NCBI RefSeq assembly: GCF_009392895.1
Contig: NZ_CP045489.1
Location: forward strand, 62,001 to 126,000
Source of the DNA: Natronorubrum aibiense
GTDB taxonomy: Archaea; Halobacteriota; Halobacteria; Halobacteriales; Natrialbaceae
DNA length: 64,000 bases
Direction of reading: 5' to 3'
How positions within the stretch are numbered: position 1 is the stretch's first letter; each line of letters starts with the position of its first letter. A program made the position numbers and the translations under genes. The notes below the pieces were generated by a model. The model did no database searches. It was not told the DNA's origin and saw nothing but the letters and a program-made list of their open reading frames with translations. Below are positions 36,080 through 60,478 of the stretch, piece by piece.

Positions 36080-37432
36080 CTACACAACTTCTCGAAGAAT
36101 CGCTTCTAACTCGGCTTCCAACTCAGAAGCCTGGAGGATGGCGATCTCGCGGTCGGATTGTTCCCTGAGTGACGCGGTCTCTTCCTCGAGGTCCTGCACC
36201 ACCAGAAGTCCATTCCATCCAGAGCCGAAGTAGTCCTCGTTCCCGTCCTCACGACCGAAGACGTACTCCTTGTTAACACGAAGGAACGCGAGGTACTCGA
36301 GTGTCTCCTTAACACCCCGTCGAATCGTGTCCTCGTTAGTGCTGTTCTTCACCTCGACGATCAGGTACTCGTGTTCGTTCTCATCCTCCGAGATGATCTC
36401 GAGGACGATGACGTCGGGACGACCCGTGTGGTTCTGGTAGTCTTTCTTGAAGTAGTTGCCCGCGACCTCCTGAGCAATGAGTTGCACCTGGTCGGTTCGA
36501 GAGGGATTTTCCTTGTCCTCGTCCGGGACGGCGACGAAGGAAAGTTTTCGATCTCGAGCTGAATTATCGTGGTAGAGTGCGATCTCTTTCTCGCCCTCGA
36601 ATCTGGCGACTTCCTGACGGTCGGTCGCGATCGTTTTGAACTGTGGCTGACTCTCTCGCATCTCCTCGAGCGTGGCGACGAAGCGAAACAGGACGAACAG
36701 TTCGAAGAGCGAGTCCACGTCGTCCGGGGCGATAGCGGTTTCCTCGAGCAGTCTGCGGATCTCGTCAGGTTCACCCCGAAGCAACCGCTGGCGACCTCTG
36801 AGCAGAGAGGCTGCGTTTCGATACACCTCGTGGCGTGAGTCGGCCGCCGTCGTCAGCATCCGCTCGGTTGGCTCGTAGGTTTCGGGCTCGCGGATTCGAC
36901 GGACGTGGACGTTCCGTTCGACGATTCGTTGGAGTTCGTCAATCAAATCCTCGCTCCCTTTCCACGTCTCACTCACCCAGTCGTAGTCCGCACGAAGATA
37001 CTCTTCGGCCTCTCGAATCGTGCGATGTACGACGGAGATGAGTCGCTTGAGAACGAGGTTTTCGGGGATATCGTAGTCCACCGAGCGATTGTCGCAGACG
37101 AAAATCGAGCTGTCTCGAGGGTACTGTGAGTAGCGCTTCTTGATGGTGTCTCCCCAGTTGATTCGTCCGTCAACGGTCCCGCGTCTCGTGCGTGACGTCG
37201 TGCGGGTCTCAGTGCGAATGCTGCGCAGGTGTTCCGGGAGTTGCCTGATGAACTCGACGACATCGTCCTGAAGGATAAAGTGAAGATCGAGCAGGAGTTC
37301 GTACTCCTCGAAGCGCTCGTCTAGCTGCTCGGGTTTGATCGAGCGGGCGAGCTCTCGCTCCGGGAACGACCCCTTCATCGCGTATGCAAGGATGTCGCTG
37401 GTGAGCTGCTCGAGGAGTTGGTCTCTATTCAT
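36080..37432 (-). CDS. mcrC: McrC-like nuclease subunit of a McrBC-type system
   Basis: A protein of about 450 residues. The N-terminal half (residues 1-250) is helical and matches DUF2357/McrC-type proteins, with the typical segment DNRSVDYDIPENLVLKRLIS. The C-terminal PD-(D/E)XK nuclease has RPDVIVLEI (Asp near 337), YLIVEVKNST (Glu and Lys near 362-364) and a following RRGVKETLEYLAFLR helix. The start is the ATG at 37432 (MNRDQLLEQL), giving an eight-base overlap with the mcrB stop; longer versions would overlap more. With the upstream McrB-like protein it should form a modification-dependent restriction complex that cuts DNA carrying modified bases. Confidence 0.78.
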   Translation of the reverse strand: MNRDQLLEQLTSDILAYAMKGSFPERELARSIKPEQLDERFEEYELLLDLHFILQDDVVEFIRQLPEHLRSIRTETRTTSRTRRGTVDGRINWGDTIKKRYSQYPRDSSIFVCDNRSVDYDIPENLVLKRLISVVHRTIREAEEYLRADYDWVSETWKGSEDLIDELQRIVERNVHVRRIREPETYEPTERMLTTAADSRHEVYRNAASLLRGRQRLLRGEPDEIRRLLEETAIAPDDVDSLFELFVLFRFVATLEEMRESQPQFKTIATDRQEVARFEGEKEIALYHDNSARDRKLSFVAVPDEDKENPSRTDQVQLIAQEVAGNYFKKDYQNHTGRPDVIVLEIISEDENEHEYLIVEVKNSTNEDTIRRGVKETLEYLAFLRVNKEYVFGREDGNEDYFGSGWNGLLVVQDLEEETASLREQSDREIAILQASELEAELEAILREVV

Positions 37433-40400
37433 TCGTGGCGAGTGAGACTTGGAGCATCTCTCGGGCTGCACCGTGGAGTAGCGACGTTTCGATATCCGGA
37501 ACCGAAGTGATTTCTCTGACGATCGTGTTTCGCTTTGGAACGCCCTCTAACTGTGGGAAGATGTAGCTGATAACTGCCTGTGTGAGGTGGTACGGGAGGT
37601 GGTCGTCGGGATGTTGGGTGACGTACTCGAGAACGTCTTTGATGATCGCGGGTCCGATCGAGCGTTCCTCGACGGCCGTGTTCGCCTGTCGCCACACCCG
37701 TCCGACTGCGCCAGCTTCTCGTCTCGTGATCTCGAGGTCCCACGCTTCCGCGTAGTCCAAGACGACATCCTCGACTGGATCATCGGAGTCCGTCGCCTCT
37801 GGGAGCGTTGGTGCTGGAACACGGACGAACGCGAACCGGCGCATAAACGCATAGCTCATCTCGTAGAGCGAGGTCTTGTCGTAGGCATTCATCGTCGCGA
37901 AAATGCGCCACGAATTGGGGACGATGTACTGATTGCTGGTGGGGACTCCCTCGAGATCGTCGTACGTGGTTAGTTCGACTTCGCGCCCGTCGACGGTGTA
38001 GGGGAGTTGGACGGATTGGCCCGAGAGGAGGGTGAACAGTTGGCCGAAGGCCTTGTCGATGTCCGCTCGATTGAGTTCGTCGATGACAACCAAGTCGTTC
38101 GACTGTGTGCCTGTTTGCGTGTTCTTGAGACGGTTGAGGACGATTCCGGGCGTAAACGAGAGGTCTTCGCCGTCCTCGGTGGACTCGCTTGGCATATAGC
38201 CGCCGACGGTATCGAACGTCGACCAATCTGCGGTCGCCGTGGTCATCTCGAAATCCGAGTACAGGTATGGGTGTGTTTCTGCGAGGTGTTCACAGACGCG
38301 CTCGGCGATTTCCGTCTTCCCCGTGCCCGGTGGCCCCGTGAGTAGGATATGTTTTCCAGCTCGGAGCGCAGTCGAGATCTGCTCGAGGATTTTCTCGCCG
38401 AGGTCGTCTTCGAAGTGCAGCCCCTCGAGGATGTCTTTCGGGATCGTGCTCTCGAGTGGCTTATGTGGGTTGATCGGTGCGACTTCGGTCAGATCGGCGG
38501 CCATCGCCTCGAGAAGCGCCATGGGGCGATCGTAATCGATTTTGCCGTCATCGGTGCGGAACGTTCCGAAACTCGACTGGACGGGGAATGCCGTTCCGGA
38601 GGCATTCATACAGAGCTGATTGGCCGAGTCGATCGGGAGGCAGTCCGTGGTGAGTGCACTGAGTTCCTGCTCGATCTCTGACGACTCTTTCTCTGCAACC
38701 CCACGTGTGGTGTCGATACGAGCGATATTTCCAGTAAAGAATAACCGATCGAAGCTCGCAACCATCGAGTACTCTTTTCTTCCGTGATATTCGTCCAACC
38801 ACCACGGATCCGATTTTTCGAAGGTTTCGCCGATGATTCCGATCCCAATCACGCCGCTCGGTTGATTAGTGAGTTCTGTAGTCGATGGTTCCACTCGAGA
38901 GTGCAAGAAGGCGACGTCGCCCTCCTCAAGGTCGCCCCACCGGTCTTGTTGACCCTCTTCGAAAGAGACTGATCCAAACTCGACTGTGGTGAGCCAGTAG
39001 TCCGGCGGTGCGGTGAACTTGTAGATCGTCGGCTCAGTGGTCTGAATATGGGTCGCCAGTGGATGATCCACGTTCGATGGTTGGTCAGGATATTCGTCGG
39101 GCGTCGTATACGCTTCCTCGAGAACGCTATTCAGACGGGGCTGATTGAACGGTCCCGACATGTCGGAGTCGTCTTGGACGAGACGAATCCCACAGAGGAA
39201 TAACGTCTGGGCGGGTGTGAACGCATTGAGCGTTCCGACCCCGACCTCGTCGGCTTTCGTCTCTAACTCCGACTCGAGGTGCTCATACGTGCGGCGGATC
39301 TGATCGAGTTTCGCAGCGGTGTCGGGGTCGACCTCGTCCGCCGGTCGGAATCCCGTGAGTGCGTCGGACCAGTCTTTGATGACTGCTTCACCGATGTGGT
39401 TTTTCAGCCACGCCGTCTCGTCTTCCCCGTGAGTTAGCTTCGAGCGGACGTCCTCGAGTGCGTGCTCGAGGGAGTCGTATTCGGAGACTGTGTCCGTCGG
39501 ATAGATCTTTTGGCCTTGGATCTGGTTAATGAACGTCTTGGTCGAGGCGTACTCGTCGTGGAAGGTAGATCCGTCCCGATCGAAGTTGATGGCACTAAAG
39601 GTATCATTTGACCACCTTTTGAAGCCGAGTATGTCCCAAAAAGATTCTCGATCCAGTTCCGCCTCGTAGATCGGCTCGAGAAACATGACATGGGGGAAGA
39701 CCACGTCGGTGACGTCGCCCCAACCGACTGCATCGGTGAAGGCAGTTGCCGTCTCTTGATCCAAGACCGTCGCGTGAGCAACACGGGCAATGATAGTGTA
39801 CGCACCTCCGCGGCGACCCTCGCGATCAGCGAACAACAGACAATCTCCTTCCGTGGCGGGTTCGTCCTCCTGATCTCCCCATATTCGGAGGGTGTCGTGT
39901 TCGATCGGCGGATCGTAGACGGCTTCCACCTCGCTTCGTGGAACGCCCTCGATCACCGTCCGGTCGAAATTCGTTCGAATCGGGCCATCGCCGTTCTTCA
40001 CGGGCACCTGATAGACTGTCGGGTCGGTGAACTGGCGAAGATCGGAGTTTCTCGAGGGTCGGTCGTCTGTGGCCGTTGGTTGATGGCTGGTCTGATCGGT
40101 TGTGATCGGTGCGAGTTTGAATCGGATCCCTTTCCGAGCGTTGCCCTCTGAATCGGGGATCTCCTCGAAGAAGTGTCCGGCGTACATGAACTGGCCGACA
40201 TACTGCACACCCTCGGTTTCCATCGTGAAGAAGTGCAGTTCCCGTCCGTGCTCGAGGTGATCTCGGATCGCGCGGTTCCCGCGTTTCATTTCCATATCGC
40301 CGACCTGCCCCTCTCCAGTGTAGATCACGGTCCCGTCCGGGCGGATCTCGTCCTGATAGCCGTGTGCTTCTCCGGTGCCACCAGTGAAGAGAAAGACGAC

Positions 40401-41051
40401 GGGTTCGTCTCTCGAGGGCGCGATTCCGCCCTGAATACTGCCCCCATATTTTGAGTGGAGGTTCTGGCGGTTGTAGGTCGAGTCGGGTACCAGCTCCACA
40501 GAAGAAAGACCGTGGAGTTGGTCGGCAACTGCGTCACCGGCTTCAGTGAGTTGGTTGTGATCGTCTGTTCGCTCTACGTAGCCGATCATTTGCAACCACT
40601 CGCGGTGGCGTGTCACCACACCTGGCGTCTCCATCTGACACTCTTCGAACTCGCCAACGAGCAGTTCCATGAGGTCCTCGTCGGTTCTGGGCTCGAGAGC
40701 TAACGCACGGAGGATTGTATCGAAGCCCTTGATGCTCGTGCGAAGCGCGTTGTACAAAACGATCGGATCCCGGTCCCTGAGATAACAGCGGCCGATTCGT
40801 GTACAGGAGTATGTGCCGTCTTGGTCCTCGATGAGGCCGAGTTCCTCGATGAAATTCAAGCGATCCGCAACCGAATCTGGGTTCTTCGCGTTCGTATTGG
40901 CAATGATCCAGTCGACGACTTCGTGTCGTGGTACTCCTTCGTCGTTCTCGGTAGATTGAGTGAGGAGTGAGAGTAGATCCGTGAAAATCTCTAACCGGTC
41001 CTCGATTCTCCCGTAGAACCGAGCGGTAGACATTCGGCGCTCGTCTGTCAT
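37425..41051 (-). CDS. mcrB: McrB-like AAA+ GTPase with SRA-like and EVE-like reader domains
   Basis: A 1,208-residue protein. Residues about 1-190 contain winged-helix segments. Residues about 205-320 have a ScoMcrA-type SRA-like signature (LHSKYGGSIQGGI, then GTVIYTGEGQVGDM, then GNRAIRDHLEHG). A further PUA-like region follows (residues about 330-520). An EVE-like domain lies near 675-780 (YWLTTVEFGSVSFEEG; then GVIGIGIIGETF). The C-terminus is the McrB-type AAA+ motor: GPPGTGKT near 902, VVIDELNRAD near 985 and the McrB-type ATMNAYDKTSL. Several reader folds in one McrB imply recognition of modified bases of more than one kind or in pairs. It is upstream of mcrC and 181 bases downstream of dptH on the same strand. 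Confidence 0.8.
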   Translation of the reverse strand: MTDERRMSTARFYGRIEDRLEIFTDLLSLLTQSTENDEGVPRHEVVDWIIANTNAKNPDSVADRLNFIEELGLIEDQDGTYSCTRIGRCYLRDRDPIVLYNALRTSIKGFDTILRALALEPRTDEDLMELLVGEFEECQMETPGVVTRHREWLQMIGYVERTDDHNQLTEAGDAVADQLHGLSSVELVPDSTYNRQNLHSKYGGSIQGGIAPSRDEPVVFLFTGGTGEAHGYQDEIRPDGTVIYTGEGQVGDMEMKRGNRAIRDHLEHGRELHFFTMETEGVQYVGQFMYAGHFFEEIPDSEGNARKGIRFKLAPITTDQTSHQPTATDDRPSRNSDLRQFTDPTVYQVPVKNGDGPIRTNFDRTVIEGVPRSEVEAVYDPPIEHDTLRIWGDQEDEPATEGDCLLFADREGRRGGAYTIIARVAHATVLDQETATAFTDAVGWGDVTDVVFPHVMFLEPIYEAELDRESFWDILGFKRWSNDTFSAINFDRDGSTFHDEYASTKTFINQIQGQKIYPTDTVSEYDSLEHALEDVRSKLTHGEDETAWLKNHIGEAVIKDWSDALTGFRPADEVDPDTAAKLDQIRRTYEHLESELETKADEVGVGTLNAFTPAQTLFLCGIRLVQDDSDMSGPFNQPRLNSVLEEAYTTPDEYPDQPSNVDHPLATHIQTTEPTIYKFTAPPDYWLTTVEFGSVSFEEGQQDRWGDLEEGDVAFLHSRVEPSTTELTNQPSGVIGIGIIGETFEKSDPWWLDEYHGRKEYSMVASFDRLFFTGNIARIDTTRGVAEKESSEIEQELSALTTDCLPIDSANQLCMNASGTAFPVQSSFGTFRTDDGKIDYDRPMALLEAMAADLTEVAPINPHKPLESTIPKDILEGLHFEDDLGEKILEQISTALRAGKHILLTGPPGTGKTEIAERVCEHLAETHPYLYSDFEMTTATADWSTFDTVGGYMPSESTEDGEDLSFTPGIVLNRLKNTQTGTQSNDLVVIDELNRADIDKAFGQLFTLLSGQSVQLPYTVDGREVELTTYDDLEGVPTSNQYIVPNSWRIFATMNAYDKTSLYEMSYAFMRRFAFVRVPAPTLPEATDSDDPVEDVVLDYAEAWDLEITRREAGAVGRVWRQANTAVEERSIGPAIIKDVLEYVTQHPDDHLPYHLTQAVISYIFPQLEGVPKRNTIVREITSVPDIETSLLHGAAREMLQVSLATNE

Positions 41052-41232: not shown

Positions 41233-44200
41233 TTAATCCGACAATTGATCAATAATCTTCATTTTGTCTGGAGGGGTTAAATAATATCCTTGTAAATTAA
41301 GTCGGGTACCTGACTGAGAATGGACTATCATGTCACCCGCACCCTGTAGATCCTCAGCTCCGGGCTCATCCAGGATAACTCGAGAATCTGTATTGGAAGG
41401 GAGACGGAAACTAATACGACACGGGAAGTTCGCTTTGATCTTCCCTGATACGATGTCTGCGGACGGTCGCTGGGTTGCAAGTAGAATAACGATCCCAAGT
41501 GCACGACCTATCTGTGCCAATCGAGTCACAGACTCCTCTAAGGAGTCTTCATCATCAGCAGACATTATCAAGTCTGCGTATTCGTCGATGACGATTACGT
41601 GGAATGGCAGTGGCTCAGCATCAATTGTTTCTTGATGTTCATAGAGTTCTGCAAGTGAAGAGACTCCTGTATTGGCTAAATATTCACGTCGCTGCTTTAC
41701 CTCTTCTTGGACGATATTGAATAGGTGTTCTGTCCCTGCGTCAGGAGTGTCGAAATATCCTCCTGCCTTCACATGGGGGAATGAAGAGAAGGCCCCGAAG
41801 TCAACACCTTTCGGATCAATAAGACTAATTTCAACTTCTTCCGGGCTGTGCGTAATGGCGAGAGCAGATACGAGAGTAGTCAAGAAGTTAGACTTCCCCG
41901 ATCCTGTTGCACCCCCAATTAGCGCATGCCTCTCATCTACTAACGATAAGATATGATGTTCATTCTTTGTATCTACTCCTATTGGCAAAGCCAGCGGCCC
42001 GGATGTACGCTCCTCAAGGGCTTTCAGCCCTTCACGAAGGTATATATCTCTTGGGTCTCCATGGGGAATTTCGAGGTGTACCGCTCCTTTTTCAGGAACT
42101 CTTGTCCCGACGATATCTCCGTGGGCCTTGATTTGCACACTCAATGTATCTAAGTTTCTTAGGATTCCCCCTATTTTCTGTCCTTCCTTTGGAATGACGT
42201 CAATACCAACCTTTCGAGGACCAATCGAAATCGAATTTGGATTTGGTGGATGAACATCTATATCAAGAGACTCAAATGCCTGTTTTAGATTTCTTACTAA
42301 CTTACTGTGGTTTACGTTAGTCTCCGGTGCAGGACTCTCACTGAGTTGATTGATTATATCTGGGAAACTCTGTTTTTGATCTCCGCCTTGTTTGCCTTTT
42401 TCTCGATCTTTGTCAGATTTACATTCCTCATCTGCGGGAGTCTCATCCGGTTCAACATCAGCTTCGGAGGTTTCTGCTACGTCGTCCTCCGCGTGGACTT
42501 CCTCTCTTTCTTTATTCGTTGAAATGTCAGTTGGTGTGTCATCGGATGTTGATTCATCCGATTCGTCTGCCGGATCAACTTCTGGGTTAACGGGTTGCTC
42601 TTCTTGATCGCGACTGTGCGTTATATTAGAACCAGAGTCCATAACATCGACTTCAGAGACGGCTCCTCCTTCGTCAGTGCTCGTCTTTGATTCGGGAGAG
42701 ACGACGGGCTTTTCGAATTGAAGGTGCTTCATATTCAGATCGGGTAGAATTTCTTCAGCCGGTTTATTAGACAGGATTTCGAGCGCATCAATCGGTGCCT
42801 CAATAGATCGCACTCGTCCATCTGAATCGATCTCTGACTGGAAGGTGTTTTGCCTGATTCGAATTACCTCCCCAATATGCCCCTCTGAATCCCTGAGGAA
42901 CGATGTATCAAACCTTCCCTCTAAGAGTTCTCGTTCGCGATTTTCTATCTGAACCCATTCTTCTTTAGAAATTATTTCGTAATTGAAGAGACGTCGTGCT
43001 GCATCAAGAATTATTTTGCCAAAGTCGCTGTAGAGCAGTTGTTCGTCTGCAGGATTTTCGTTTGGTCGCAACCAACCCTGTAAATTTTCAATCCCCTTTT
43101 CAATTTGGTCACGCCCGGTATCGATTTTAGAACTTCCTCCTTTTGTTTCAACAAGCCATAATTTTATGGTAGAGTCAGTCTGGTCGGTCGGTACGCCAAT
43201 AAAGCATAGATCATCGCTCGATTTTCCATCTGCATCCGTTTGAAATAGTCCAGTTGTTCCGCTTCGATAAGCCCGATCATGTTGAACCAACTCATTCATG
43301 CTTATCGGTATCCACACATGATCTGGTATACTGTCTTCCAGGATGGTCCGGCTCAACGCTAGTCCGCCGACAAAGCCAATGAACTCGACTACTTCGGTAT
43401 CGTTTGCTCTCTGTAGTTTTAGGGCAAGATCACCATCCACGCCAACAAGTGTTGACAGAATGTTCTCGGTATTCAGTTGACCACTGAGTTCTGATTTAGC
43501 CAGTGCTCTCTGGAGTGACAATAGGTACGGATTCCGTTTGTTAGTTGATGTAATAACATCGTAGTTGGGTGAGGACGAATCATACTGATCGCTGTAATGA
43601 ATCATCAATTTCCCTGTCTGTCGCTGCATATCTGCTTCAGAACGGAGGTAAAACTCAATGCCGACGTTCGGTTGAACATGGCCTACCCAGAGTGAATTGT
43701 CCCACAGCTTTGCCAAATTTGTATCCTGAGACGACTCAATTCTCTTTTTAGGGGCTTGGCCTAATTGATATGAATCTTGTTCTGCCCCTGCTTCTAAGGC
43801 GTTAGCAACACGTGCCACATTATGAATTAATTCGTCAGAGTCTTCATCACAACTAAATCCAACAGTATAAACTACTCCATCAGGTGACCCCTCCACATCA
43901 ATTGATTCACGAGAAAAGAGACCTTTTTTCAAAGTGCCCGACGGAAGTTCGCTCACGTCAGTCATTATTCCGGATTGTTCTTTCAAAAGTCCACGGAAAA
44001 ATGTGATATGAGCAGGCTTCTGATCTTCCTCAACATATTCTTCTTCGTGAATATAGTGAACCTTTCGCCGTAGCGTATCTACGAGCTCGTCATCTTTCCC
44101 CTCTAACGTAGACCGCAGGCGGGACTCAGACGACTCATTAAAGAACTGATCGAGTGATTCACCTTCGGTTTTATCGCCATATATTCGTAACAGAATCGTT

Positions 44201-46680
44201 GGCGGTTCAAAATCTGATGAGTTAATTTTTCTATAGAAGTGGAAAAGGCCCTTAACAACGGATTCTAAGTCACCCATATTCACCAGATTAATGACTAGAT
44301 GCCGCTCTGGGTGGAGTGAAAATAAGGAGGGGAAAGCTTGAACAAATGTATATAGCTTATCACGAATTACTCGTTCCATATACGAGGGTGTTACAGCTCC
44401 TGGTGATTCCACTGGTGAATAAATTTGCCACAACGGATTTTCTCGGTACCGTAGACCTCGAAGAAGTTTGTCAGAAGTGTCCGAAGTGCGATACGGGAAT
44501 ATACCAGATGGACTGAATTTATCAACAAACTCTTCCCGTCTAAAGCCAGTGTCTGCGGTTCCAACGAGTTCTTCGTCGCGCCATTCTGCTATTCGTAGAC
44601 CATATGCTAATAGTACTGGATGGAAGGGTGTTAGCCAAACTTTGTCACCGGTGGTTGACTGAATCGTTCCTAATAATCGGAGCGGGGTAGACGGAGTAAA
44701 TGTCTTACTCGTACCAACCTCAGCAGCAGCATTGACGTAAGACTCCAGAACGTTTCGAACTAGCTTTTGTGTCTGCTGGTCCCACTGGTCACTCGTCGGC
44801 GTCCGTTCGCGACTTTTGAAGTGAACGAAAAGATCTTCATACGCTTTCAGTAGTGCTTCTGGAACTTCGTTCGCGTCCTTGATTAGAGTCCCAAAGTCAA
44901 TTGAGTCACCTTCAACTTCACGACCGAGTGGAGTTCCTTCATTGATTATATGTTCCTCAATCTGAATAAGTTCTAATGCTGGATCCTCTAATCCAATACT
45001 TTTCCCTGAAGTCCTATATATTTCGCCGCGATCTGTATTAATAGAGAGTTGATCTGGTAGGTGGAACGAATCTTGTCCCCAATGATTTGGCTCAACAATA
45101 GCGCTTAACATCAACGGAAGAATGACCTCTTCAGTTTCTACCGAACTCGTCTCAGTAAGAAAGGCAACCTCTACAGGTACCCCTTCAGGGGGAGCAATTC
45201 GGAAAGATAACCGTTCTGTAACTTCGCTAGGCCTTGGTCGGATCGTAGTTTCGCTATCGAACGAGACCGTTTCACCGCTCTCAGTTATTTCCACTTCTCG
45301 TGGTTCAAAATTGAAATCAAGTCGTTCTAACTGCTCTAGGTATAATTCTGTATCACCTGGTAAGAGAAGTGTTTCTTCTTCAACATCCACATCAAACGTA
45401 GTACCGCTTGTAGCGCGGAAAAACCATTCTGGAACAACAGCGATGTCAAATTGATGAGTAGGTTTCCCTCGAGTCGTTTTTTTCCCCACATAGAACTGGA
45501 ACTGGGCATAGTGTGGTACCTCGGGATCCAGATCCTCGATCGAGGCAGTAACACGCTCTTTGCGTTTTGATACACGACCGATGTCGTCTCCATTCGGGTC
45601 AATACATTCAAATGGGGTATCTTCTAAATCAGCATTAAATTGAGCGGTAACGCTTATATCGCCGTCTTTAGCGACCAAGAGAAGTGTCTGCCGAATTTTC
45701 GATCCCTCCTCTTGGGAGTTGTATATGCGCTCATCTGCTGCGTCAATCTCAAGATCCTGAAACCGCCGAATCTTTCCCTCCTCTTCATGCTTCCGGGCTT
45801 TCGAGTGCTTAGCCCATGACCAGTTTCCTAATTCAAGAACCTCATTGATGAAACTCTCTTCATAATTTGCTTTGAGACGTGATTCAGTGTCCACCCCCGC
45901 TCGATGTGCACGCCGAAGATTTTTGGCGTGGTTGAGATTGCTCTTCAGTGTTTTTTCCACGGCCTCCGCAAGGTCCTCCTCATTTTTCTTGTCAGTAAGA
46001 AACTGTTCAGTTAGCATGTCATCATGTAAAAATTGTGGTAAATCACCAATTAGATTAGGTAAGCGATCATATTCTTCGTCTTCTACTACATCTCTAATCT
46101 CACAAAGTGTGTCCAAAATTTCCGTGCTTTCAGCCTGAATTGCATTTTGGTCGATAACGCTTTTCAGCCCCTTCAGCAGAGCACTACCTTGCGTTGACTC
46201 GATGTCACTGGGGTCCAGAATGTTATTTTGGAACGATTCAAGATTTATCGGCCCATCATCCGCAAACAAGTCCTCTGACGCCTCTAACGTATCCAGACTA
46301 GAATCAGTATCCATTATCATAAGCATCGCCCGCGGTTCAGTTGAATTAGCTGATTCAGAGATCAAATTCCGCATTTTAGTAGCAAACCCTTGGACGACGA
46401 TGTGATCATCAGGGTTCTGTGTAGTAACCTCAGGTTTTACACGGAGAAGATATGTAGGGACACCTTCTTCTGGAATATATGTAGGCAGTAAAATACTGTC
46501 GCCAGCTACCTCGATTGGTGGCCCATCTACACCAATTTCATCAACTAGGGCTTCCGCAAATCTATCTGTAACTGCTTTGCTATCGAATTTTGCAAGCAAA
46601 ATCTGACCAGGCTTTGGAGGGCGAGATTTGAGGAATTCCTCCAAATGCTTTGCGAGTCGGTATTCAAATCGTTCGGACAT
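41233..46680 (-). CDS. dptH: DptH-like FtsK/HerA-type ATPase
   Basis: A protein of about 1,815 residues. The C-terminal 250 residues are an FtsK-type motor: Walker A GGATGSGKSNF near 1587-1597, ISLIDPKGVDFGAF, Walker B VIVIDEYADLI near 1690 and LLATQRPSADIVSGKIKANF. The long N-terminal part is of unknown fold. An acidic spacer precedes the motor. Near residue 1174, LWLVETKGGSS resembles the E-x-K end of a PD-(D/E)XK nuclease site. Size and order (after DptF and DptG) match DptH (DndH) of phosphorothioation-dependent restriction. The start is the ATG at 46680 (MSERFEYRL), overlapping dptG by 17 bases. It is AT-richer than the Dpd genes. Confidence 0.75.
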   Translation of the reverse strand: MSERFEYRLAKHLEEFLKSRPPKPGQILLAKFDSKAVTDRFAEALVDEIGVDGPPIEVAGDSILLPTYIPEEGVPTYLLRVKPEVTTQNPDDHIVVQGFATKMRNLISESANSTEPRAMLMIMDTDSSLDTLEASEDLFADDGPINLESFQNNILDPSDIESTQGSALLKGLKSVIDQNAIQAESTEILDTLCEIRDVVEDEEYDRLPNLIGDLPQFLHDDMLTEQFLTDKKNEEDLAEAVEKTLKSNLNHAKNLRRAHRAGVDTESRLKANYEESFINEVLELGNWSWAKHSKARKHEEEGKIRRFQDLEIDAADERIYNSQEEGSKIRQTLLLVAKDGDISVTAQFNADLEDTPFECIDPNGDDIGRVSKRKERVTASIEDLDPEVPHYAQFQFYVGKKTTRGKPTHQFDIAVVPEWFFRATSGTTFDVDVEEETLLLPGDTELYLEQLERLDFNFEPREVEITESGETVSFDSETTIRPRPSEVTERLSFRIAPPEGVPVEVAFLTETSSVETEEVILPLMLSAIVEPNHWGQDSFHLPDQLSINTDRGEIYRTSGKSIGLEDPALELIQIEEHIINEGTPLGREVEGDSIDFGTLIKDANEVPEALLKAYEDLFVHFKSRERTPTSDQWDQQTQKLVRNVLESYVNAAAEVGTSKTFTPSTPLRLLGTIQSTTGDKVWLTPFHPVLLAYGLRIAEWRDEELVGTADTGFRREEFVDKFSPSGIFPYRTSDTSDKLLRGLRYRENPLWQIYSPVESPGAVTPSYMERVIRDKLYTFVQAFPSLFSLHPERHLVINLVNMGDLESVVKGLFHFYRKINSSDFEPPTILLRIYGDKTEGESLDQFFNESSESRLRSTLEGKDDELVDTLRRKVHYIHEEEYVEEDQKPAHITFFRGLLKEQSGIMTDVSELPSGTLKKGLFSRESIDVEGSPDGVVYTVGFSCDEDSDELIHNVARVANALEAGAEQDSYQLGQAPKKRIESSQDTNLAKLWDNSLWVGHVQPNVGIEFYLRSEADMQRQTGKLMIHYSDQYDSSSPNYDVITSTNKRNPYLLSLQRALAKSELSGQLNTENILSTLVGVDGDLALKLQRANDTEVVEFIGFVGGLALSRTILEDSIPDHVWIPISMNELVQHDRAYRSGTTGLFQTDADGKSSDDLCFIGVPTDQTDSTIKLWLVETKGGSSKIDTGRDQIEKGIENLQGWLRPNENPADEQLLYSDFGKIILDAARRLFNYEIISKEEWVQIENRERELLEGRFDTSFLRDSEGHIGEVIRIRQNTFQSEIDSDGRVRSIEAPIDALEILSNKPAEEILPDLNMKHLQFEKPVVSPESKTSTDEGGAVSEVDVMDSGSNITHSRDQEEQPVNPEVDPADESDESTSDDTPTDISTNKEREEVHAEDDVAETSEADVEPDETPADEECKSDKDREKGKQGGDQKQSFPDIINQLSESPAPETNVNHSKLVRNLKQAFESLDIDVHPPNPNSISIGPRKVGIDVIPKEGQKIGGILRNLDTLSVQIKAHGDIVGTRVPEKGAVHLEIPHGDPRDIYLREGLKALEERTSGPLALPIGVDTKNEHHILSLVDERHALIGGATGSGKSNFLTTLVSALAITHSPEEVEISLIDPKGVDFGAFSSFPHVKAGGYFDTPDAGTEHLFNIVQEEVKQRREYLANTGVSSLAELYEHQETIDAEPLPFHVIVIDEYADLIMSADDEDSLEESVTRLAQIGRALGIVILLATQRPSADIVSGKIKANFPCRISFRLPSNTDSRVILDEPGAEDLQGAGDMIVHSQSGTRLNLQGYYLTPPDKMKIIDQLSD

Positions 46681-48091
46681 ATACAGCACCTCCACTGTCG
46701 CTTTGACGATCAATCATTCCCATCTCTTCAAGTTCGTCGAGAGCAATACTCTGGCTTTCTGAATCAAGGTATATTCCTCTGTTTTCTAGGTATTGTATGA
46801 ACATGTCGTAGTGCATATCGTCTTCTGCAAGTATGAAGAGCCGCGCTAGGAAGCGTAGTGCGGCTTGGTTAAGGCGCAGCGTTGGACCCACGCCTGTTTG
46901 TGTTCTCCAGTATTTCCGTTCTTTCCCGTCACCCAGTTGTCGTATGACATTTAAACCAGCTGTAATTGGAGTTTGATTTGAAGCAGATCGCTGCTCATAG
47001 CTTTTGCGTACAGCAACCGTGAGTCGTCTTGCTGAGGTTACAATGTTGACTTCTGGTTGACGTTCTCTTTCTGGAAAGTGACTTTCAATGGCTTCTACAC
47101 ACGATCGCTTGAGTGAGTCTGGTAATTGGACTGCCTCTGATAATGTGTACGCTTTTCGGCCATCATCGTACTTGCTGCCTTGAACTGTCTTTGCGATTAT
47201 ACTTAAAGCCATAAGACGTCCCCAAGAATCGTAGATGTCTCGTTCGATTCCATCCCCATCTCGCTGACGGTACTCTTGTGAGAATTTTCGGTCCTGACTT
47301 GCTGATTCATTCCATAGGCCATAGTGTGTGTCTTTAATCTCAGGTGAGTAGGAGTCGTCTGGATTCTCCGATAACTGTTGGAATTCTAATCTCAGATTGA
47401 CAGAAAGTTGAATATAGTAGACCATGAAATGCAAACTAAACAGGTCACGAGCTGACTGGAGCCAGTTCGATGGAGAGTCATGTTCATCTCGCAACCAGGC
47501 CTCGAGATCCTTTTGAAAAGCTTTTGAGACATCACTCACATATGGTCGGATCGGCTCGGGTTCATCAATACCTTCTGTGTCTCGTGTGTTTTCTTCTGCT
47601 ACTTCAACGAACACCTGTTCGAAAATGTTCGATGGATTTTGCTGTTCAAGTCGACTAACGAATCTCTTGTGCAGATCTGAATTGAATTCGCCATCACCCG
47701 ACGTCATTAACATCGTGTACCACTTCCCCCAATTCCGAGTCTCTTCGGGCTTGATACACTTAGGAATGGAAGGATGAAAGGGGATCATGTATCGTTTTGC
47801 CTTCTTTCCACGGGCGCCCCGTTCACCGGTAGTGGTGTATGTTGATGAAAAGATTTGCCAAGCAGTGTCAATACCTTCTTGGGTCTCAAATGGACCGTCT
47901 TCAGCAACCTTCTCGCGAAATTCTTTGACCGAATCAACGGTTGGCTCGGCTCCCAGCACACTTGTCAAAATCTCTGAAAAAATTGTTTCTCGAACCGTTG
48001 GTGCCGGTGACGTTGGAAAGAGAGAGCCTTTTATTACGCGACTGCTCGACGTTTCCAGCGGTGGAACTGAGTCTTTGTATTCCATTTTCAT
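46664..48091 (-). CDS. dptG: DptG-like restriction protein
   Basis: A 475-residue, mostly helical protein without a catalytic motif. It has the DptG-like core LFSLHFMVYYIQLSVNLRL, followed by LWNESASQDRKFSQEYRQR and a helical end (LRFLARLFILAEDDMHYDMF) closing in a small winged-helix-like segment. DptG (DndG) is a required structural partner in DptFGH. It overlaps dptF by four bases and dptH by 17 bases, so the three are translationally coupled. The assignment rests on this pattern and on its place between clear DptF- and DptH-like proteins. Confidence 0.7.
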   Translation of the reverse strand: MKMEYKDSVPPLETSSSRVIKGSLFPTSPAPTVRETIFSEILTSVLGAEPTVDSVKEFREKVAEDGPFETQEGIDTAWQIFSSTYTTTGERGARGKKAKRYMIPFHPSIPKCIKPEETRNWGKWYTMLMTSGDGEFNSDLHKRFVSRLEQQNPSNIFEQVFVEVAEENTRDTEGIDEPEPIRPYVSDVSKAFQKDLEAWLRDEHDSPSNWLQSARDLFSLHFMVYYIQLSVNLRLEFQQLSENPDDSYSPEIKDTHYGLWNESASQDRKFSQEYRQRDGDGIERDIYDSWGRLMALSIIAKTVQGSKYDDGRKAYTLSEAVQLPDSLKRSCVEAIESHFPERERQPEVNIVTSARRLTVAVRKSYEQRSASNQTPITAGLNVIRQLGDGKERKYWRTQTGVGPTLRLNQAALRFLARLFILAEDDMHYDMFIQYLENRGIYLDSESQSIALDELEEMGMIDRQSDSGGAVYVRTI

Positions 48092-49848
48092 TGGCCTTTC
48101 CCTCTAATTTTGATTCCATCGAAGGCCCCCTTTTCGACGGATAATAATTCTTCACCGTTCTTATTGACAATACGGACAGAGTTTTGCTTGTCAGTGAATT
48201 CAGATAGGCGAGAGTGAATTAATCGAATTCCCTCGGATCTCTCTAAATCACGAACATTTGGATTGTAACCCATGCTAATTCGCTTCATTAAGACATAGAG
48301 TTCGAAGGAGATTGGTATTGGAACTTCAGTATTTGCTTGTTCGGGTTCAAGAACAAACCAGAGCTGCCCAGGTGTTGTTTCACGTTTCGTTCTCTGTCTG
48401 GATTTCTCTCTGTTCGGCGAAGGGTTTGACCATTGTGCCAGAAATCGGTAGTCTGTAGTTTTTATTCCATCAACGAACTCAATATAATTGCTGTTTGTAT
48501 GCTTTCCACTCCATCCCTTTAGCGCATCTGTTAGCGTTTGGTTCATATTGACCGCACAGTTTTTAAGTTCCTTCTCGACTTGAGGATCGATTTCTTCACT
48601 CGTATCCCGGTTGAGATATGTATATGCACCAAGGAAGTCGGTGAACCAAGACCATTCAATAGCCGTTCGAATTTGCTCGCGTTGTTTTCCTTCTAAGTAC
48701 TGTTTTCGAAGCGTAGTTTGGATCTTCTCCTCGATCGAGAAATTAGCTATAGTTGGATGGGACTCCAAAATTTCATCTAGTGTAGATGGGTTTGCAGCCC
48801 ATTCAAGAATTCTAAGATCAATTTCTTTTTCAGACTGGGCAGATGGATCGAGGTGTCCACTCCGCTCTCCGTCGTGATCGTCTATTATTTGGAATACACT
48901 ATTCCAGATCATCATTCTCGATGTGATTTTTCCATCTGTCTCGATCGAGCGTCCGATCGGACATGCCGAATCTTCCTTAGCAATCGATTCTAGCGTAGGT
49001 GGGAGGAGAATAGATGCTAAGTAATCCAAGATTCGACGAGGATTCAGATACGAGTTTTCAATAAGACTCTTAGCTGCAAGTAAACGAGCAATATTCGCCC
49101 TCACCTCGTCATCGGTGAATCGTTCCATATTATAATGGAGTGGGCAATCACCGTGTGCAGGACATTCCTCTTTCTCAAATTGAAAAGCTTCGTAAAACGG
49201 ACTTTCCGGATCACTGGCATCGAATTTGTCTACGATTTCACGGAGTAGACCTTCTCCAAAGTGATCTGGTTGTGTCCTGAACAGTTGTCGATGACTTAGG
49301 TTTAGAACCCGGATTGAGACTTTCTCATTTGTCCTCTGAGGTTTTGCCCCCTCTATCGCATCCCATATTTCTTGATATTTCTCTTTCTTTCCTTTTCGCT
49401 CGAAGAAGTCAATAGCAAGACCGAGATTAATTGCCACTCCAGAACGAGGACCTTCTCCTTCGTTTATCCGTTGTATTGCTGTATCGAAGAACTCGCTAAG
49501 TGTCTCATCATATGTTTTCGTTTTTTGGGTAGATGCAGTGGCATCCATATGGATGTCCGTTTCTGTCAATGAGTCAATCCCCTCTTCTTGAGCTAATCGA
49601 TATGCTCGAGAGAGAAGGGCACTTTTTCCATCACCTGCGCTTCCAGTGATAATTAGTAATTTACCGTCTTCGATATAGTCATCAACAAAGAAAGACTTGA
49701 CTAAGTCATCTTCTTTCGTAGAAACATATAACCCTTGACGTAAACTATTGCGGTCGATATGTCCACCAACAATGGCACCTGCTTCCCCCATTTTACAGGA
49801 TCTTAGAAGATCAAATAAGGTTTGTTTATTCGTGTCTATCAATGACAT
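48088..49848 (-). CDS. dptF: DptF-like P-loop ATPase
   Basis: A 586-residue ATPase. Walker A GSAGDGKS is at residues 69-76. DptF-type motifs follow: IHMDATAST, KTYDETLSEFF, then VAINLGLAIDFFE, and a Cys pair region ECPAHGDCPLHYNMERF near residue 230. This succession is characteristic of DptF (DndF) of phosphorothioation-dependent restriction. It is the first gene of the minus-strand dptFGH operon. Its start lies 121 bases from the oppositely oriented Dam-type methylase, and no dndABCDE or sspABCD homologue is visible in the window. The restriction module may therefore use another self mark. Confidence 0.78.
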   Translation of the reverse strand: MSLIDTNKQTLFDLLRSCKMGEAGAIVGGHIDRNSLRQGLYVSTKEDDLVKSFFVDDYIEDGKLLIITGSAGDGKSALLSRAYRLAQEEGIDSLTETDIHMDATASTQKTKTYDETLSEFFDTAIQRINEGEGPRSGVAINLGLAIDFFERKGKKEKYQEIWDAIEGAKPQRTNEKVSIRVLNLSHRQLFRTQPDHFGEGLLREIVDKFDASDPESPFYEAFQFEKEECPAHGDCPLHYNMERFTDDEVRANIARLLAAKSLIENSYLNPRRILDYLASILLPPTLESIAKEDSACPIGRSIETDGKITSRMMIWNSVFQIIDDHDGERSGHLDPSAQSEKEIDLRILEWAANPSTLDEILESHPTIANFSIEEKIQTTLRKQYLEGKQREQIRTAIEWSWFTDFLGAYTYLNRDTSEEIDPQVEKELKNCAVNMNQTLTDALKGWSGKHTNSNYIEFVDGIKTTDYRFLAQWSNPSPNREKSRQRTKRETTPGQLWFVLEPEQANTEVPIPISFELYVLMKRISMGYNPNVRDLERSEGIRLIHSRLSEFTDKQNSVRIVNKNGEELLSVEKGAFDGIKIRGKGQ

Positions 49849-49969
49849 CTGTTACTGATGACTAATCAACTCAACTCACTCCAAATAAATGTAGCGGATA
49901 TAAAATATGTGAACGATAAGAACAACTCTATATCAAACGAGTTTTAATCGCGCCTTCTCTATTCGCTTT
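49849..49969. promoter_or_regulatory. Divergent promoter region of dptFGH and the methylase cassette
   Basis: This 121-base AT-rich gap separates two divergent starts. On the plus strand GTTTTAATCG lies about 28 bases before the methylase ATG, a typical TATA-box distance for a leaderless haloarchaeal transcript. On the minus strand TTTTATATCC lies about 45-55 bases before dptF. The shared region suggests coordinated expression. Confidence 0.5.
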
Positions 49970-50962
49970 ATGGCCGAACCCATTCTTCGATGGGCAGGGG
50001 GAAAAAGACAATACCTCGATAAAATCCTGCACCACCTGCCACCAAAAATGGAATTTGACGCATATTTTGAACCTTTCTTTGGTGGAGGAAGTGTGTTTTT
50101 CTCTTTGGAACCTTCAAATGGGTACATCAGTGATGTCAATCCTCGTCTCATGAATTTCTATTCACAGATTCAGAATTCACCCTCCCAAGTAATATCGAAA
50201 AACAAGGAATTAGATAGAGAGTTTGAGGCGCTTGTATCACAACGACAGCGAACATTAGATGAGTACGGAGATTCCAACAATATGTCCAAAAGGGAACTTC
50301 CGGATGAGCCCAAGTCGTCGGAAACCTACAGAACCGAGTTTTACGAAACGAAGCGTGAAGAATTCAACGATCTACGGAATTCTAATGGAGAATGTAAAGA
50401 TCCACTTCGCGAAGCCGTTTTGTTCTTGTTCCTTAATAGAACCTGTTGGAACGGACTTTATAGATCTAATCAAGAAGGTGATTTTAATGTCCCACTTGGA
50501 CGTCAGTGGACAAAAATAGCATTTCTTGAAAACCGGATTCATGAGGCTCACCGTGTATTAAGCAGTACTACTATTTCATCAGGAGATTTCGCACAAGTCC
50601 TTGAATTACCGAGTCAGAACGACTTAGTCTTCCTCGATCCACCTTACCCGGCCGGTCCTAACGAGGATGGTTTTCAAGATTATCACCCTGCAGGATTCGG
50701 TCTTGATCGCCAAAAAGAACTTGCTGAATTTGCGCTCAAACTGGACTCACAAGGAGTCTATGTAATGATTACAAATGCCCCTTCAGAAGCTGTTATGAAT
50801 ATCTACGAAGAAACGGGGGTTCTGGACCGGTTTGAAATTGATCGATTAGAGGGGTCTCGAATGATTAATAGCGTTTCAGAAAACCGCACTGATATTGGAG
50901 AAACAGATGTTATTCTTACTAACTACGACCAAACCGGTAGTGCAGGCGTATTCAATTTTTGA
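49970..50962 (+). CDS. Dam-type N6-adenine DNA methyltransferase (D12 class), copy 1
   Basis: A 330-residue methyltransferase of the Dam/DpnM (D12) class. The N-terminal LRWAGGKRQYLDKIL and PFFGGGSVFFSLEPSN form the SAM-binding motif X and motif I region. Motif IV is DLVFLDPPYPAG, with catalytic DPPY near residue 223. Late motifs are GVYVMITNAPSE. Compared with copy 2 it carries an insertion of about 40 residues around 85-125 (REL through ETYRTEFYETKREEF). It is divergent from dptF and is followed 101 bases later by a GHKL ATPase gene. It probably supplies protective methylation for the adjacent restriction module; the recognised sequence cannot be read from the protein. Confidence 0.82.
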   Translation: MAEPILRWAGGKRQYLDKILHHLPPKMEFDAYFEPFFGGGSVFFSLEPSNGYISDVNPRLMNFYSQIQNSPSQVISKNKELDREFEALVSQRQRTLDEYGDSNNMSKRELPDEPKSSETYRTEFYETKREEFNDLRNSNGECKDPLREAVLFLFLNRTCWNGLYRSNQEGDFNVPLGRQWTKIAFLENRIHEAHRVLSSTTISSGDFAQVLELPSQNDLVFLDPPYPAGPNEDGFQDYHPAGFGLDRQKELAEFALKLDSQGVYVMITNAPSEAVMNIYEETGVLDRFEIDRLEGSRMINSVSENRTDIGETDVILTNYDQTGSAGVFNF

Positions 50963-51063
50963 TTGAATATTTTGGGAGGATAGAAGAGAGGATAAGACTA
51001 TTCAGAAGCGGCCACCGGAAACAGCCCGATATATTTATGAGTCTAGGATCGAGCAAATAGTAT

Positions 51064-52932
51064 GTGACTCAGCAGACAGCGCAAGATCTGGCTCAGCAGC
51101 GAGCTCAACTCCTTCCAACAAAGGATACGCTCAAAGCGCTGAAATCGGACGTGACTTTGGAGTCTGCTTGCCTAGAACTTTGCGATAACTCGATAGATGC
51201 GTGGAAGAGAAATAAGAATCAATCGGGATCTGCTCATCTTGAGATTTCCACGGAAGAGAAGGATAAGAGAACAGAACTACTAATCCGAGATGATACGGGC
51301 GGTGTCCGTCGTAAGGACTCGTCTATGCTTTTCGGTTTAGGACAGACTGCCAAAGGCGACTCTCGCGGTTTGATTGGGACATTCGGAGTAGGTGCAAAAA
51401 AGAGTCTCGTCAACCTTGGGATTCCGTTTCAGATCCGCTCATGCCATGAGGATGAAGATGTTGGATGGACATATAGAATCACGGAAGAATGGTTTGAAGA
51501 TGACACTGACTGGTCAGTGAATATTCACCCAGACAGAGATATTAGCCCAGGAACGACAGAAATTCGGATTGAAGACCTAAATTATAATTGGACTAAAGAA
51601 AATACGGAAAATTTGTGTTCTGCACTCGGACAAGCATATAATTGCTTTTTATCCGACGACTTCCAGAGCATCAAAGATACAAATTATAATCTTAAAATAA
51701 CTGTCAATGGTACGCCAGTTACAGCGGAGGGTCTCCCAGAATGGTCATATACACCATTTGATGGCTTGGCACCACGACGCTACGAAAATATTGAGATAGA
51801 CCATCCAGAATCTAATAAACCAGTTTCTGTTTCGATCACTGTTGGTCTACTGAGAAAAAAGACGGCTGATAACGTTGGTACGGACATCTACTGCCAACAG
51901 CGAAAGATCGCATCCGGTCTGAGAAATGAAGTTGGCGGATTTGGGAACGGACCAGAGGGAATTGGGAAGTTTATGGCTCGCCACGAACGGCTGAAAGTTA
52001 TTGTGGAAATTGAGACGGAGGCAGATGGTCGATTACTCCCGTGGGACACTCAAAAATCTACGATCGACCGATACAACCCAATTATGCGTGGCACTGAGAC
52101 CACACGCGGCGTATATAATTGGCTGCGCCGAACGGTTGAACCATATTACCTTCTTGACGCAGACAAGGTGCCCAGAGCCTTCGTAGAACCCTATAATTCC
52201 ACTCATGATCAAGCAGTTAATAATGGATCACCTATCATTCATGATTATCGCGGGCGAGAGAGGGTTGGAACAAATCACCGACCAGATACCGATCTCTCAG
52301 AAATTAAATCTATCCATGATGCCGCAATAGCACATGCTGCACTGCGAATTAGATGTGATGCAGCGTTTAAATCATCAAAACTCCCTGCCTATACCTTACA
52401 ACTCGAAACGGAATGTGAAAGAGATATTGACACACTCACTGAAGTAACGACTGTGCCACCTGATTCAGTGGTTGAAGAGCCTTTCCAAACAGTTGGCCAA
52501 ATCAAAGAGTTGGCACGACGGCATATTGCTGAAGGAATCATCTATATTGACGAGTTAGAAGCATGGGGGCGTCCAACGTATGAACGGTATGTCAACCAAA
52601 ACTCTGATGACAACTTGGAATTAGTAAACGAATCTCCACAGGGGGTTCCCGCAACTTTTGAAGAGTTGACAGACGATGTCATGCAAAAAACAATCTCTGC
52701 TAATTCCTCGAGCAATGTAGCGACCTCGAAAAAGACGGTTTCAGAGGAAGAGGAAAATGGATGCGCAGAAATATACTTGGTCCTTGATCGTGGTTCTGAT
52801 GAGGAACAAGTTGCAAGACTTTTAGAGTGTGAACGAAACAAAATTTGTCGCTCACTTGACCTCTCTTCTAACGAAGCAGACGAGGTTGTCTGGGAAGAGT
52901 TGAAGCACCACCTCGAGTCTTTGATCGATTAA
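51064..52932 (+). CDS. MORC/MutL-like GHKL ATPase of the methylase cassette
   Basis: A 622-residue protein with a Bergerat-fold ATPase: ACLELCDNSIDAW (residues 35-47), RDDTGGVRRKDSSMLFGLG (75-93) and GTFGVGAKKSLVNLG (105-119). The central part (WSYTPFDGLAPRRYENIEID; then SITVGLLRKKTADNVGTDIY) parallels the 787-residue paralogue at 28670. The C-terminal 150 residues are helical and unique, without a zinc ribbon. The start is a GTG at 51064; a nearby ATG is out of frame. It lies between two Dam-type methylases, the sort of neighbourhood in which prokaryotic MORC-like ATPases were first described. A role in sensing or bridging unmethylated DNA is possible. Confidence 0.78.
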   Translation: MTQQTAQDLAQQRAQLLPTKDTLKALKSDVTLESACLELCDNSIDAWKRNKNQSGSAHLEISTEEKDKRTELLIRDDTGGVRRKDSSMLFGLGQTAKGDSRGLIGTFGVGAKKSLVNLGIPFQIRSCHEDEDVGWTYRITEEWFEDDTDWSVNIHPDRDISPGTTEIRIEDLNYNWTKENTENLCSALGQAYNCFLSDDFQSIKDTNYNLKITVNGTPVTAEGLPEWSYTPFDGLAPRRYENIEIDHPESNKPVSVSITVGLLRKKTADNVGTDIYCQQRKIASGLRNEVGGFGNGPEGIGKFMARHERLKVIVEIETEADGRLLPWDTQKSTIDRYNPIMRGTETTRGVYNWLRRTVEPYYLLDADKVPRAFVEPYNSTHDQAVNNGSPIIHDYRGRERVGTNHRPDTDLSEIKSIHDAAIAHAALRIRCDAAFKSSKLPAYTLQLETECERDIDTLTEVTTVPPDSVVEEPFQTVGQIKELARRHIAEGIIYIDELEAWGRPTYERYVNQNSDDNLELVNESPQGVPATFEELTDDVMQKTISANSSSNVATSKKTVSEEEENGCAEIYLVLDRGSDEEQVARLLECERNKICRSLDLSSNEADEVVWEELKHHLESLID

Positions 52933-53010
52933 TGATCACGATTGTACAAACTCCCGCAAATATGATCAGTAAATTCCGAATGGACCGTGTTCTGACATTC
53001 GAGGTAATAC

Positions 53011-53898
53011 ATGGCTAAACCAGTTCTAAAGTGGGCGGGTGGGAAAAGACAAATGTTAGATGAAATTCTCCCCCGTGTACCCTCCGAAAACCGATTTGAC
53101 CGTTATTTTGAACCATTTGTAGGCGGCGGCGCTCTATTCTTTGAGCTTGAACCATCCAATGCTTACTTGAGTGATGTGAACTCTCGGCTCGTTAACTTCT
53201 ACACACAGGTACAACAACGACCTGAGGAATTGATCGGGGTAATTAGCGAACTGATCCGGAAGCATTCTGAGGAACTCTACTACGAGCGACGAACAGAGTT
53301 CAATGAAATTCCTCAGAATGCCAAATGTCCTGATCTCCTTCTTCGCCAAGCAGGGCTCTTTTATTATTTGAATCAGACCTGTTTCAATGGCCTATATCGA
53401 GAAAATGAAGAGGGGGATTTCAACGTTCCTTACGGGAGACAAAAAACAGATCCAAGTGTTCAACCGGACCAGATCCGTCAAGCTCATAAAGCCCTGCAGT
53501 CTGCGACAATCAAATCGGGGGACTTTATGCGGATCGAGGAGATGGTAACAGATAACGACTTAGTTTATTTTGACCCTCCTTACCAAAAATTGTCTGGCGG
53601 GTCCAACTTCTCGCAATATAATAAAAAGGGATATGCATCTGAAGAACAAGATGATCTCCGGAATCTTGCAGTTCGACTTCATAAAAAAGGGGCGCGCGTA
53701 CTGATCACCAATTCCATCTCAGCAAAGTCCCTGTATACTGCGAATAAAATCCCTGATCCGTTTCGTGTTGTCGACGTCACTGCCGAACGGGCGATCAACA
53801 GCGACTCTGCCCATAGGACAGTGGCATCAGAAATCATAGTGACCAACATATCTCCCTTCGAGTTGACTGATACTGATACTCTTCCCTTCTTACAATAA
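53011..53898 (+). CDS. Dam-type N6-adenine DNA methyltransferase (D12 class), copy 2
   Basis: A 295-residue D12-class methyltransferase: LKWAGGKRQMLDEILPRVP, PFVGGGALFFELEPSNAYLSD, motif IV DLVYFDPPYQKLSG (DPPY near residue 189) and the late motif GARVLITNSISA. It is clearly homologous to copy 1 at 49970 over its whole length but lacks the insertion near residues 85-125, and its target-recognition region differs. Two such enzymes in one cassette often methylate the two strands of an asymmetric site, as fused or paired D12 methylases do in some type II systems. It follows the GHKL gene by 78 bases on the same strand. Confidence 0.82.
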   Translation: MAKPVLKWAGGKRQMLDEILPRVPSENRFDRYFEPFVGGGALFFELEPSNAYLSDVNSRLVNFYTQVQQRPEELIGVISELIRKHSEELYYERRTEFNEIPQNAKCPDLLLRQAGLFYYLNQTCFNGLYRENEEGDFNVPYGRQKTDPSVQPDQIRQAHKALQSATIKSGDFMRIEEMVTDNDLVYFDPPYQKLSGGSNFSQYNKKGYASEEQDDLRNLAVRLHKKGARVLITNSISAKSLYTANKIPDPFRVVDVTAERAINSDSAHRTVASEIIVTNISPFELTDTDTLPFLQ

Positions 53899-59857: not shown

Positions 59858-60478
59858 CTATACCATTATAGTATACACTATCAAGCCGCCCGCGTACATC
59901 GTAAGAAGAACGTACAGGAGTGCCAGAAGTGCGGCAATAGTCTTCTCTACTGTCGTTTGCTCGTAGTACTGGACATCGTCGGTGTTACGTGCGATATCCC
60001 AAAGAACCTCTCCGAGCATTTTGATTCGAGGAAATCGGGTGTGATTTGCTTCGGTCGCTCCGGTCGGTCCTAACTTCTCCCACTCCTGTTGATATACTGG
60101 ATACGCAAGGTCTGATTCCATCTCGTGGAGGATCTCGTATTTCGCCTGGTTCAGTCGACGATGAGAATCTACTGTTTGATACCAGAGTCCACAGAGACAG
60201 ACGCCAAGCAGACCTACTGCAACCAAACCGATCTGCTGGGCACGCGAAAGCGGTCCTTGGGCGATAAACGTGATTATGACCAAAATCCCCGAGAGGAGTG
60301 AGACGTAAAACCGATTCGTCTGAAGTCTTCGGTCGGACACAGCCATGGCACTCCCTGCGTAGTGTGTGTACTGATCGATGAGCGTCTCATCGCGTGTAGG
60401 GCGGGAATCGTCAGATGTCGTCTTTGAGCCTGATACAGGCTCTTGTCCGGTCGCGCCTTCCTTAGCCATGTTTCGCAA
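59858..60478 (-). CDS. Two-TM membrane protein paired with a TIR-domain protein
   Basis: A 206-residue protein. The acidic, disordered N-terminus is followed by two closely spaced transmembrane helices (FYVSLLSGILVIITFIAQG and QIGLVAVGLLGVCLCGLWY), a cytosolic helical segment (RRLNQAKYEILHEMESDLAY) and a C-terminal helix (TIAALLALLYVLLTMYAGG). The pattern of paired helices followed by a YxI-L-E-M-E segment is that of RipA/SLATT-like membrane proteins found beside TIR-type sensors. Its start overlaps the end of the TIR gene by 17 bases. It may act as a membrane effector or anchor. Confidence 0.65.
   Translation of the reverse strand: MRNMAKEGATGQEPVSGSKTTSDDSRPTRDETLIDQYTHYAGSAMAVSDRRLQTNRFYVSLLSGILVIITFIAQGPLSRAQQIGLVAVGLLGVCLCGLWYQTVDSHRRLNQAKYEILHEMESDLAYPVYQQEWEKLGPTGATEANHTRFPRIKMLGEVLWDIARNTDDVQYYEQTTVEKTIAALLALLYVLLTMYAGGLIVYTIMV

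Follow-up and report, generated by a model that had tools for sequence, protein, structure and literature searches.

A haloarchaeal DptFGH restriction module coupled to a GHKL ATPase and a Dam-family methylase rather than to Dnd genes

Among the closest described systems to the locus analyzed here are the phosphorothioate (PT) systems DndABCDE with the restriction proteins DndFGH (Dpt) and, in haloarchaea, DndCDEA with PbeABCD. N6-methyladenine (6mA) can reportedly stand in for PT against DndFGH, as described by Chen et al. in 2017. In archaea, dndFGH genes were found to be absent beside dndCD, and methylases were located near 155 of 320 solitary PbeAC, for which a Pbe-methylase pairing was proposed (Xiong et al., 2019; PMC6459918). 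DndFGH has been argued to act as a standalone system, and CxC/DndE systems to recruit cytosine methylases, in a study that does not mention GHKL/MORC proteins (Rakesh et al., 2024; PMC10853773), whereas MORC/paraMORC ATPases are known from restriction-modification (R-M) operons (Iyer et al., 2008; PMC2292703). Pbe-methylase pairing, standalone DndFGH, and 6mA-for-PT protection have thus been reported previously, but the literature searched yielded no description of DptFGH with GHKL-Dam and no paper containing both GHKL and DndFGH.

We analyzed a window of 64 kb from Natronorubrum aibiense, in which the genes encoding DptH, DptG, and DptF on the minus strand diverge from those encoding Dam1, a GHKL ATPase, and Dam2 on the plus strand, a six-gene layout whose open reading frame coordinates agree with the initial annotation. 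DptH (41233-46713, minus strand), the predicted restriction/translocation subunit, comprises a PD-(D/E)XK-type nuclease region with the motif SDD...ETK at about residues 1165-1190, conserved in Dnd-linked DptH, and a C-terminal FtsK ATPase with an intact Walker A motif (GATGSGKS). Its open reading frame opens with TTG, an ATG 33 bp downstream being the likelier start; the protein matches TIGR03237 (NCBIfam) with 247 bits (E 2.4e-73), under the equivalog cut-off of 620, and PADLOC DndH with E 5.9e-106, its C-terminus forming the FtsK domain. DptG (46664-48091, minus strand), the putative DNA-binding subunit of the restriction complex, passes TIGR03236 (62 bits, cut-off 20) and is recognized by PADLOC DndG, and DptF (48088-49848, minus strand), a P-loop NTPase subunit with an intact Walker A motif (GSAGDGKS), passes TIGR03238 (91 bits, cut-off 50). 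With DptF and DptG over their curated cut-offs, both E-values of DptH, and the catalytic motifs kept, the earlier statement that DptFGH is intact holds.

The divergent gap of 121 bp between dptF and dam1 (49849-49969), also noted initially and reproduced by the coordinates, is from its position probably a shared promoter region. Dam1 (49970-50962, plus strand) and Dam2 (53011-53898, plus strand) are predicted N6-adenine methyltransferases, the second presumably accessory, and both pass TIGR00571 and PF02086 with intact DPPY and FxGGG motifs. The GHKL ATPase between them (51064-52932, plus strand) possesses a MutL/MORC-like N-terminal domain (HATPase_c_3; PF13589 above the cut-off) with the motifs ELCDNSIDAW, RDDTGGV, and GTFGVGAKKS, and shares 51-52% identity with its homologs at other GHKL-Dam loci; the description of two adenine methylases around a MORC-like ATPase is therefore borne out by these domain matches. 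AlphaFold models of the GHKL protein, in which the fold beyond its N-terminus and an S5 domain after GHKL were sought, are of low confidence (pLDDT 34 from one sequence and 32 from two) and were set aside. A GHKL alignment profile found no match in the PDB, and a search of viral contigs with the GHKL protein found no relatives.

Sulfur-modification genes, reported as not visible around the locus, were sought across the whole host genome (4.35 Mb, 99.98% complete). The best DndC score was 13 bits, DndD produced matches only at Rad50-like scores, and the PAPS-reductase family (PF01507), examined for SspD, was represented by only two proteins, one CysD-like and the other the tRNA-thiolation enzyme NcsA. 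For PbeABCD, the PbeA match was no better than expected of helicases in general (E 1.1e-31), and for PbeC, a CxC ABC ATPase, the DndD-type matches were Rad50-like only. These DndC, DndD, and PAPS-reductase searches rule out dnd genes elsewhere in the genome, and the absence of DndC, DndD, and SspD thus extends beyond the window. Among 391 haloarchaeal genomes, none of the eight with DptF or GHKL-Dam carries DndC, which is not significant by itself (p 0.68 by chance), and all 18 genomes with DndC carry PbeA, while none of these 18 carries DptF or a member of the close GHKL clade.

The same 391 genomes were searched for DptF and GHKL. Intact DptF/DptFGH loci were found in four (G000, the window genome; G064; G058; G239), with a fragmentary match in G385, and an order-level genome draw for DptF returned the identical four genomes. 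Close relatives of the GHKL protein (>900 bits) occur in seven (G000, G064, G058, G079, G144, G200, G329), and in all seven the Dam gene directly follows the GHKL gene. Intact DptFGH lies beside GHKL-Dam at three of the four loci (G000, G064, G058), representing three genera and two families, an overlap with a hypergeometric p of 1.4e-5, although these intact co-occurring loci number only three, two of them near-identical cassettes. In G064 and G058, which belong to different families, the genes are co-directional in the order GHKL-Dam-DptF-DptG-DptH and lie in one common 11.9-kb block of 85% identity, which starts 39 bp ahead of GHKL and stops 12 bp short of the DptH end, with nothing else alike in 32 kb and unrelated flanks. 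Because the block spans exactly these genes, the five move as one cassette, and judging from dN/dS values of 0.05-0.09 in each of them between G064 and G058, all five are under purifying selection. In the same comparison (L010/L012), dS is 1.3 for GHKL and Dam and 0.46-0.59 for DptFGH, a more than twofold difference, which hints that the halves of the cassette had partly separate histories, as if exchanged. In G239, the genes on the flanks of DptFGH (L014, 5343-17571) encode two C5-cytosine methylases plus a Sau3AI/MutH-like endonuclease, and the DptH of this genome stops before the FtsK domain.

A decayed copy was identified in Halorhabdus tiamatea plasmid pHTIA (G079), where, in a relic divergent from GHKL-Dam, a deletion has joined DptF residues 3-33 (64.5% identity) to DptH from residue 1636 onward, followed by IS elements and then the DptH C-terminus (61-80% identity). 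Since the relic is divergent, pHTIA formerly had a layout like that of the window; it has since lost the restriction half and kept GHKL-Dam. Recurrence, this relic, and the cassette boundaries rule out chance adjacency, and together with the lack of dnd genes in the host and the presence of the arrangement in other genera, they make the coupling of DptFGH to a GHKL-adenine methylase module well supported at the level of gene organization. Neither of the outcomes that the initial annotation named as refuting, dnd genes elsewhere in the genome or a lack of recurrence, was obtained.

GHKL-Dam also accompanies other effectors. In Natronorubrum thiooxidans (G329), GHKL, Dam, McrB, McrC, a short PbeA, PbeC, and a dnd_assoc_4 protein are encoded on one strand; Pbe genes are likewise present with GHKL-Dam in pHTIA and in G200, on different contigs in the latter, and in G144 the neighbor is a UvrD-PDDEXK pair. 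The module is therefore found with Pbe/McrBC, an effector normally sulfur-linked, in genomes without DndC. McrBC-like pairs adjoin GHKL-Dam in G329 and pHTIA. Short PbeA proteins, covering only model positions of about 241-681, occur in about 18 of the 391 genomes, nearly all without DndC. In a tree of concatenated GHKL-Dam, a single clade of DptFGH-linked modules is rejected (p-AU 1.5e-6), with G144 nested beside G064/G058, and these comparisons show that GHKL-Dam has been exchanged between the predicted DptFGH and Pbe/McrBC effectors. Pairwise identities of GHKL and Dam track each other (r 0.95, seven close-clade loci), and since GHKL also stays with Dam across effector changes, it probably belongs functionally with Dam.

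The Dam-GHKL-Dam arrangement proposed by the initial annotation stood in part: DptFGH beside a methylase and GHKL does recur, and both Dam genes do flank GHKL in the window, but the recurring unit is GHKL-Dam, and no counterpart of Dam2 was found at the other GHKL-Dam loci, so that Dam-GHKL-Dam was rejected as a conserved unit. In a Dam tree including orphan and R-M Dams, Dam1 groups with the GHKL-linked Dams of the remaining genomes (98/97), Dam2 falling outside; a sister relation of the two is rejected (p-AU 0.007). The conserved unit is GHKL with Dam1, and Dam2 is an extra, separately diverged methylase. In both, the NGLYRxN...NVP and DPPY motifs match those of DpnM, of EcoDam-type enzymes, and of a haloarchaeal Dam beside a DpnII-family REase; NGLYRxN and NVP also occur in AlwI-linked and DpnII-linked Dams, and NGLYRxN resembles the NGLCRYN of EcoDam. 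On the NGLYRxN and NVP motifs, the best guess for the site of Dam1 and Dam2 is one containing GATC; the haloarchaeal sulfur mark, GpsATC, also lies within GATC (PMC6459918).

The window DptFGH shares only about 16-21% identity with Dnd-linked DptFGH, and in the phylogeny initially suggested for comparing the two, haloarchaeal DptFGH form one clade of their own, with the three GHKL-linked ones nested inside. In bacteria, the plasmid-borne dptFGH of Massilia and Pseudoalteromonas have dnd genes in their vicinity. The dndBCDE genes of Priestia Mes11 diverge from dptFGH and occupy the place taken by the Dam module in the window, whereas around the dptFGH of a Levilactobacillus plasmid there are no modification genes. 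Among the bacterial DptF matches, the one with the best E-value is from the Priestia megaterium YC4-R4 plasmid (L122, 7217-20700); there, a Dam-family methylase and an AlwI-family REase are encoded directly upstream of dptFGH, and no dnd genes were found within about 12 kb of it.

Other genes predicted to function in defense surround the locus. A McrB/McrC-like pair (36080-41051, minus strand) follows immediately after DptH in the same orientation, a GmrSD/SspE-like nuclease (55024-57639, plus strand) is next to Dam2, and an EVE-HNH protein near it (57802-58824, minus strand) resembles PT-DNA restriction enzymes (90 bits, cut-off 180); all three lie outside the common cassette and were rejected as parts of the system. 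Farther away are a TIR-domain protein (ThsB-like) beside an 8xMP membrane protein (59858-61436, minus strand) and a second, remote GHKL ATPase of 787 aa (28670-31033, plus strand), the latter beyond a cluster of very large helicase genes, Dpd/Druantia/BREX-helicase-like (8660-25520), whose sizes resemble those of a Natronococcus plasmid cluster (L018) in which a GHKL gene and a near homolog of McrC are likewise present.

We consider it fairly probable that the locus forms an R-M-like system, with GHKL-Dam as the modification module and DptFGH as the restriction module attacking DNA without 6mA. Dam1, helped here by Dam2, would methylate resident DNA at the adenines of GATC-type sites; the GHKL ATPase would be a MutL/MORC-like clamp driven by ATP, working with Dam and probably loading or regulating it on DNA; and DptFGH, with DNA-binding DptG, the NTPase DptF, and the nuclease-translocase DptH, would scan DNA and attack unmarked molecules. 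We infer the activity of the methylases and their site, the part played by GHKL, and 6mA as the signal read by DptFGH, and a functional change of the mark from sulfur to 6mA is, as our best inference, the best-supported mechanism. GHKL-Dam is best read as an exchangeable module that may place 6mA at GATC-type sites on behalf of effectors that in other systems depend on PT. More tentatively, and with less than even confidence, we propose that it could be a plug-in writing ATPase-gated 6mA at GATC-type sites, exchangeable among DptFGH, Pbe-McrBC, and others, whose effectors would read the mark at the site and not sulfur itself. Against the favored explanation, the two Dams of the window exceed what the model needs, and DndFGH has been described as standalone (PMC10853773), as fits the Levilactobacillus genes.

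The last point leads to a different reading, that DptFGH acts alone here and that GHKL-Dam is an unrelated epigenetic or R-M module kept near by defense-island clustering. DndFGH is often decoupled from modification genes (PMC10853773), as in Levilactobacillus, and the window is crowded with other defense genes, but two gene orders, cassette limits falling exactly at GHKL and DptH, and a divergent relic are hard to obtain by island clustering, and the co-occurrence of DptF with GHKL-Dam stands against it as well, so that we regard this reading as unlikely. We give a similarly low probability to 6mA licensing or activating the effector, and not only shielding self DNA, as PbeABCD needs PT on host DNA: PbeABCD without PT loses antiviral activity, PT loss being non-toxic (PMC6459918), and GHKL-Dam also accompanies Pbe-type effectors, yet for DndFGH the literature describes protection, and its presence without PT is toxic to the host (PMC6459918; PMC12707154). 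That the GHKL ATPase is instead a sensor or effector reading methylation state or infection and activating DptFGH, while Dam does no more than protect resident DNA, would agree with the interpretation of GHKL/MORC ATPases of R-M operons as DNA-manipulating ATPases of restriction systems (PMC2292703); it appears very improbable, as GHKL remains with Dam when the effector changes and tracks its divergence.

The 6mA-based R-M reading touches the question of how DndFGH distinguishes self from non-self. Only 10-15% of PT sites are modified. A natural DptFGH traveling with a methylase would be a cleaner test case for self-recognition, because 6mA can be mapped genome-wide and removed by gene deletion, and the system would assign to a GHKL ATPase, whose fold also occurs in eukaryotic MORC proteins, a role in DNA modification that can be tested. 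In some haloarchaea, DptFGH, a DNA-cutting defense familiar from bacteria with sulfur-marked DNA, instead accompanies a MutL-like ATPase and an adenine methylase, suggesting a swap of the self-mark from sulfur to methyl.

Compared with known systems, the locus resembles DpnII/Dam type II R-M in its Dam family, close to haloarchaeal Dam paired with a DpnII-family REase, but in place of a small cognate REase it has an ATP-dependent complex of three subunits together with a GHKL ATPase. MADS (mad1-8) similarly combines methylation with DptG/DptH-like proteins; however, weak mad7 and mad8 matches were accompanied by no PADLOC match to the other mad genes among ten proteins of 36080-58824, and DndF/G/H models score far better. 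The GHKL protein with Dam genes on either side reproduces the GHKL-beside-methylase feature of MORC/paraMORC R-M systems (Iyer et al., 2008), although there the usual companions are SF2 helicases, VSR-type endonucleases, and cytosine methylases (PMC2292703), whereas the window has DptFGH. DndCDEA-PbeABCD is likewise haloarchaeal with a GATC-type mark, and GHKL-Dam also occurs near short PbeA/PbeC loci, but here the effector is DptFGH and the module GHKL-Dam. With DndABCDE-DndFGH the locus shares the same three restriction genes, dptF, dptG, and dptH, and the divergent position of the modification genes seen in Priestia Mes11, while its genome, without DndC, DndD, and SspD, has an adenine methylase and a GHKL ATPase.
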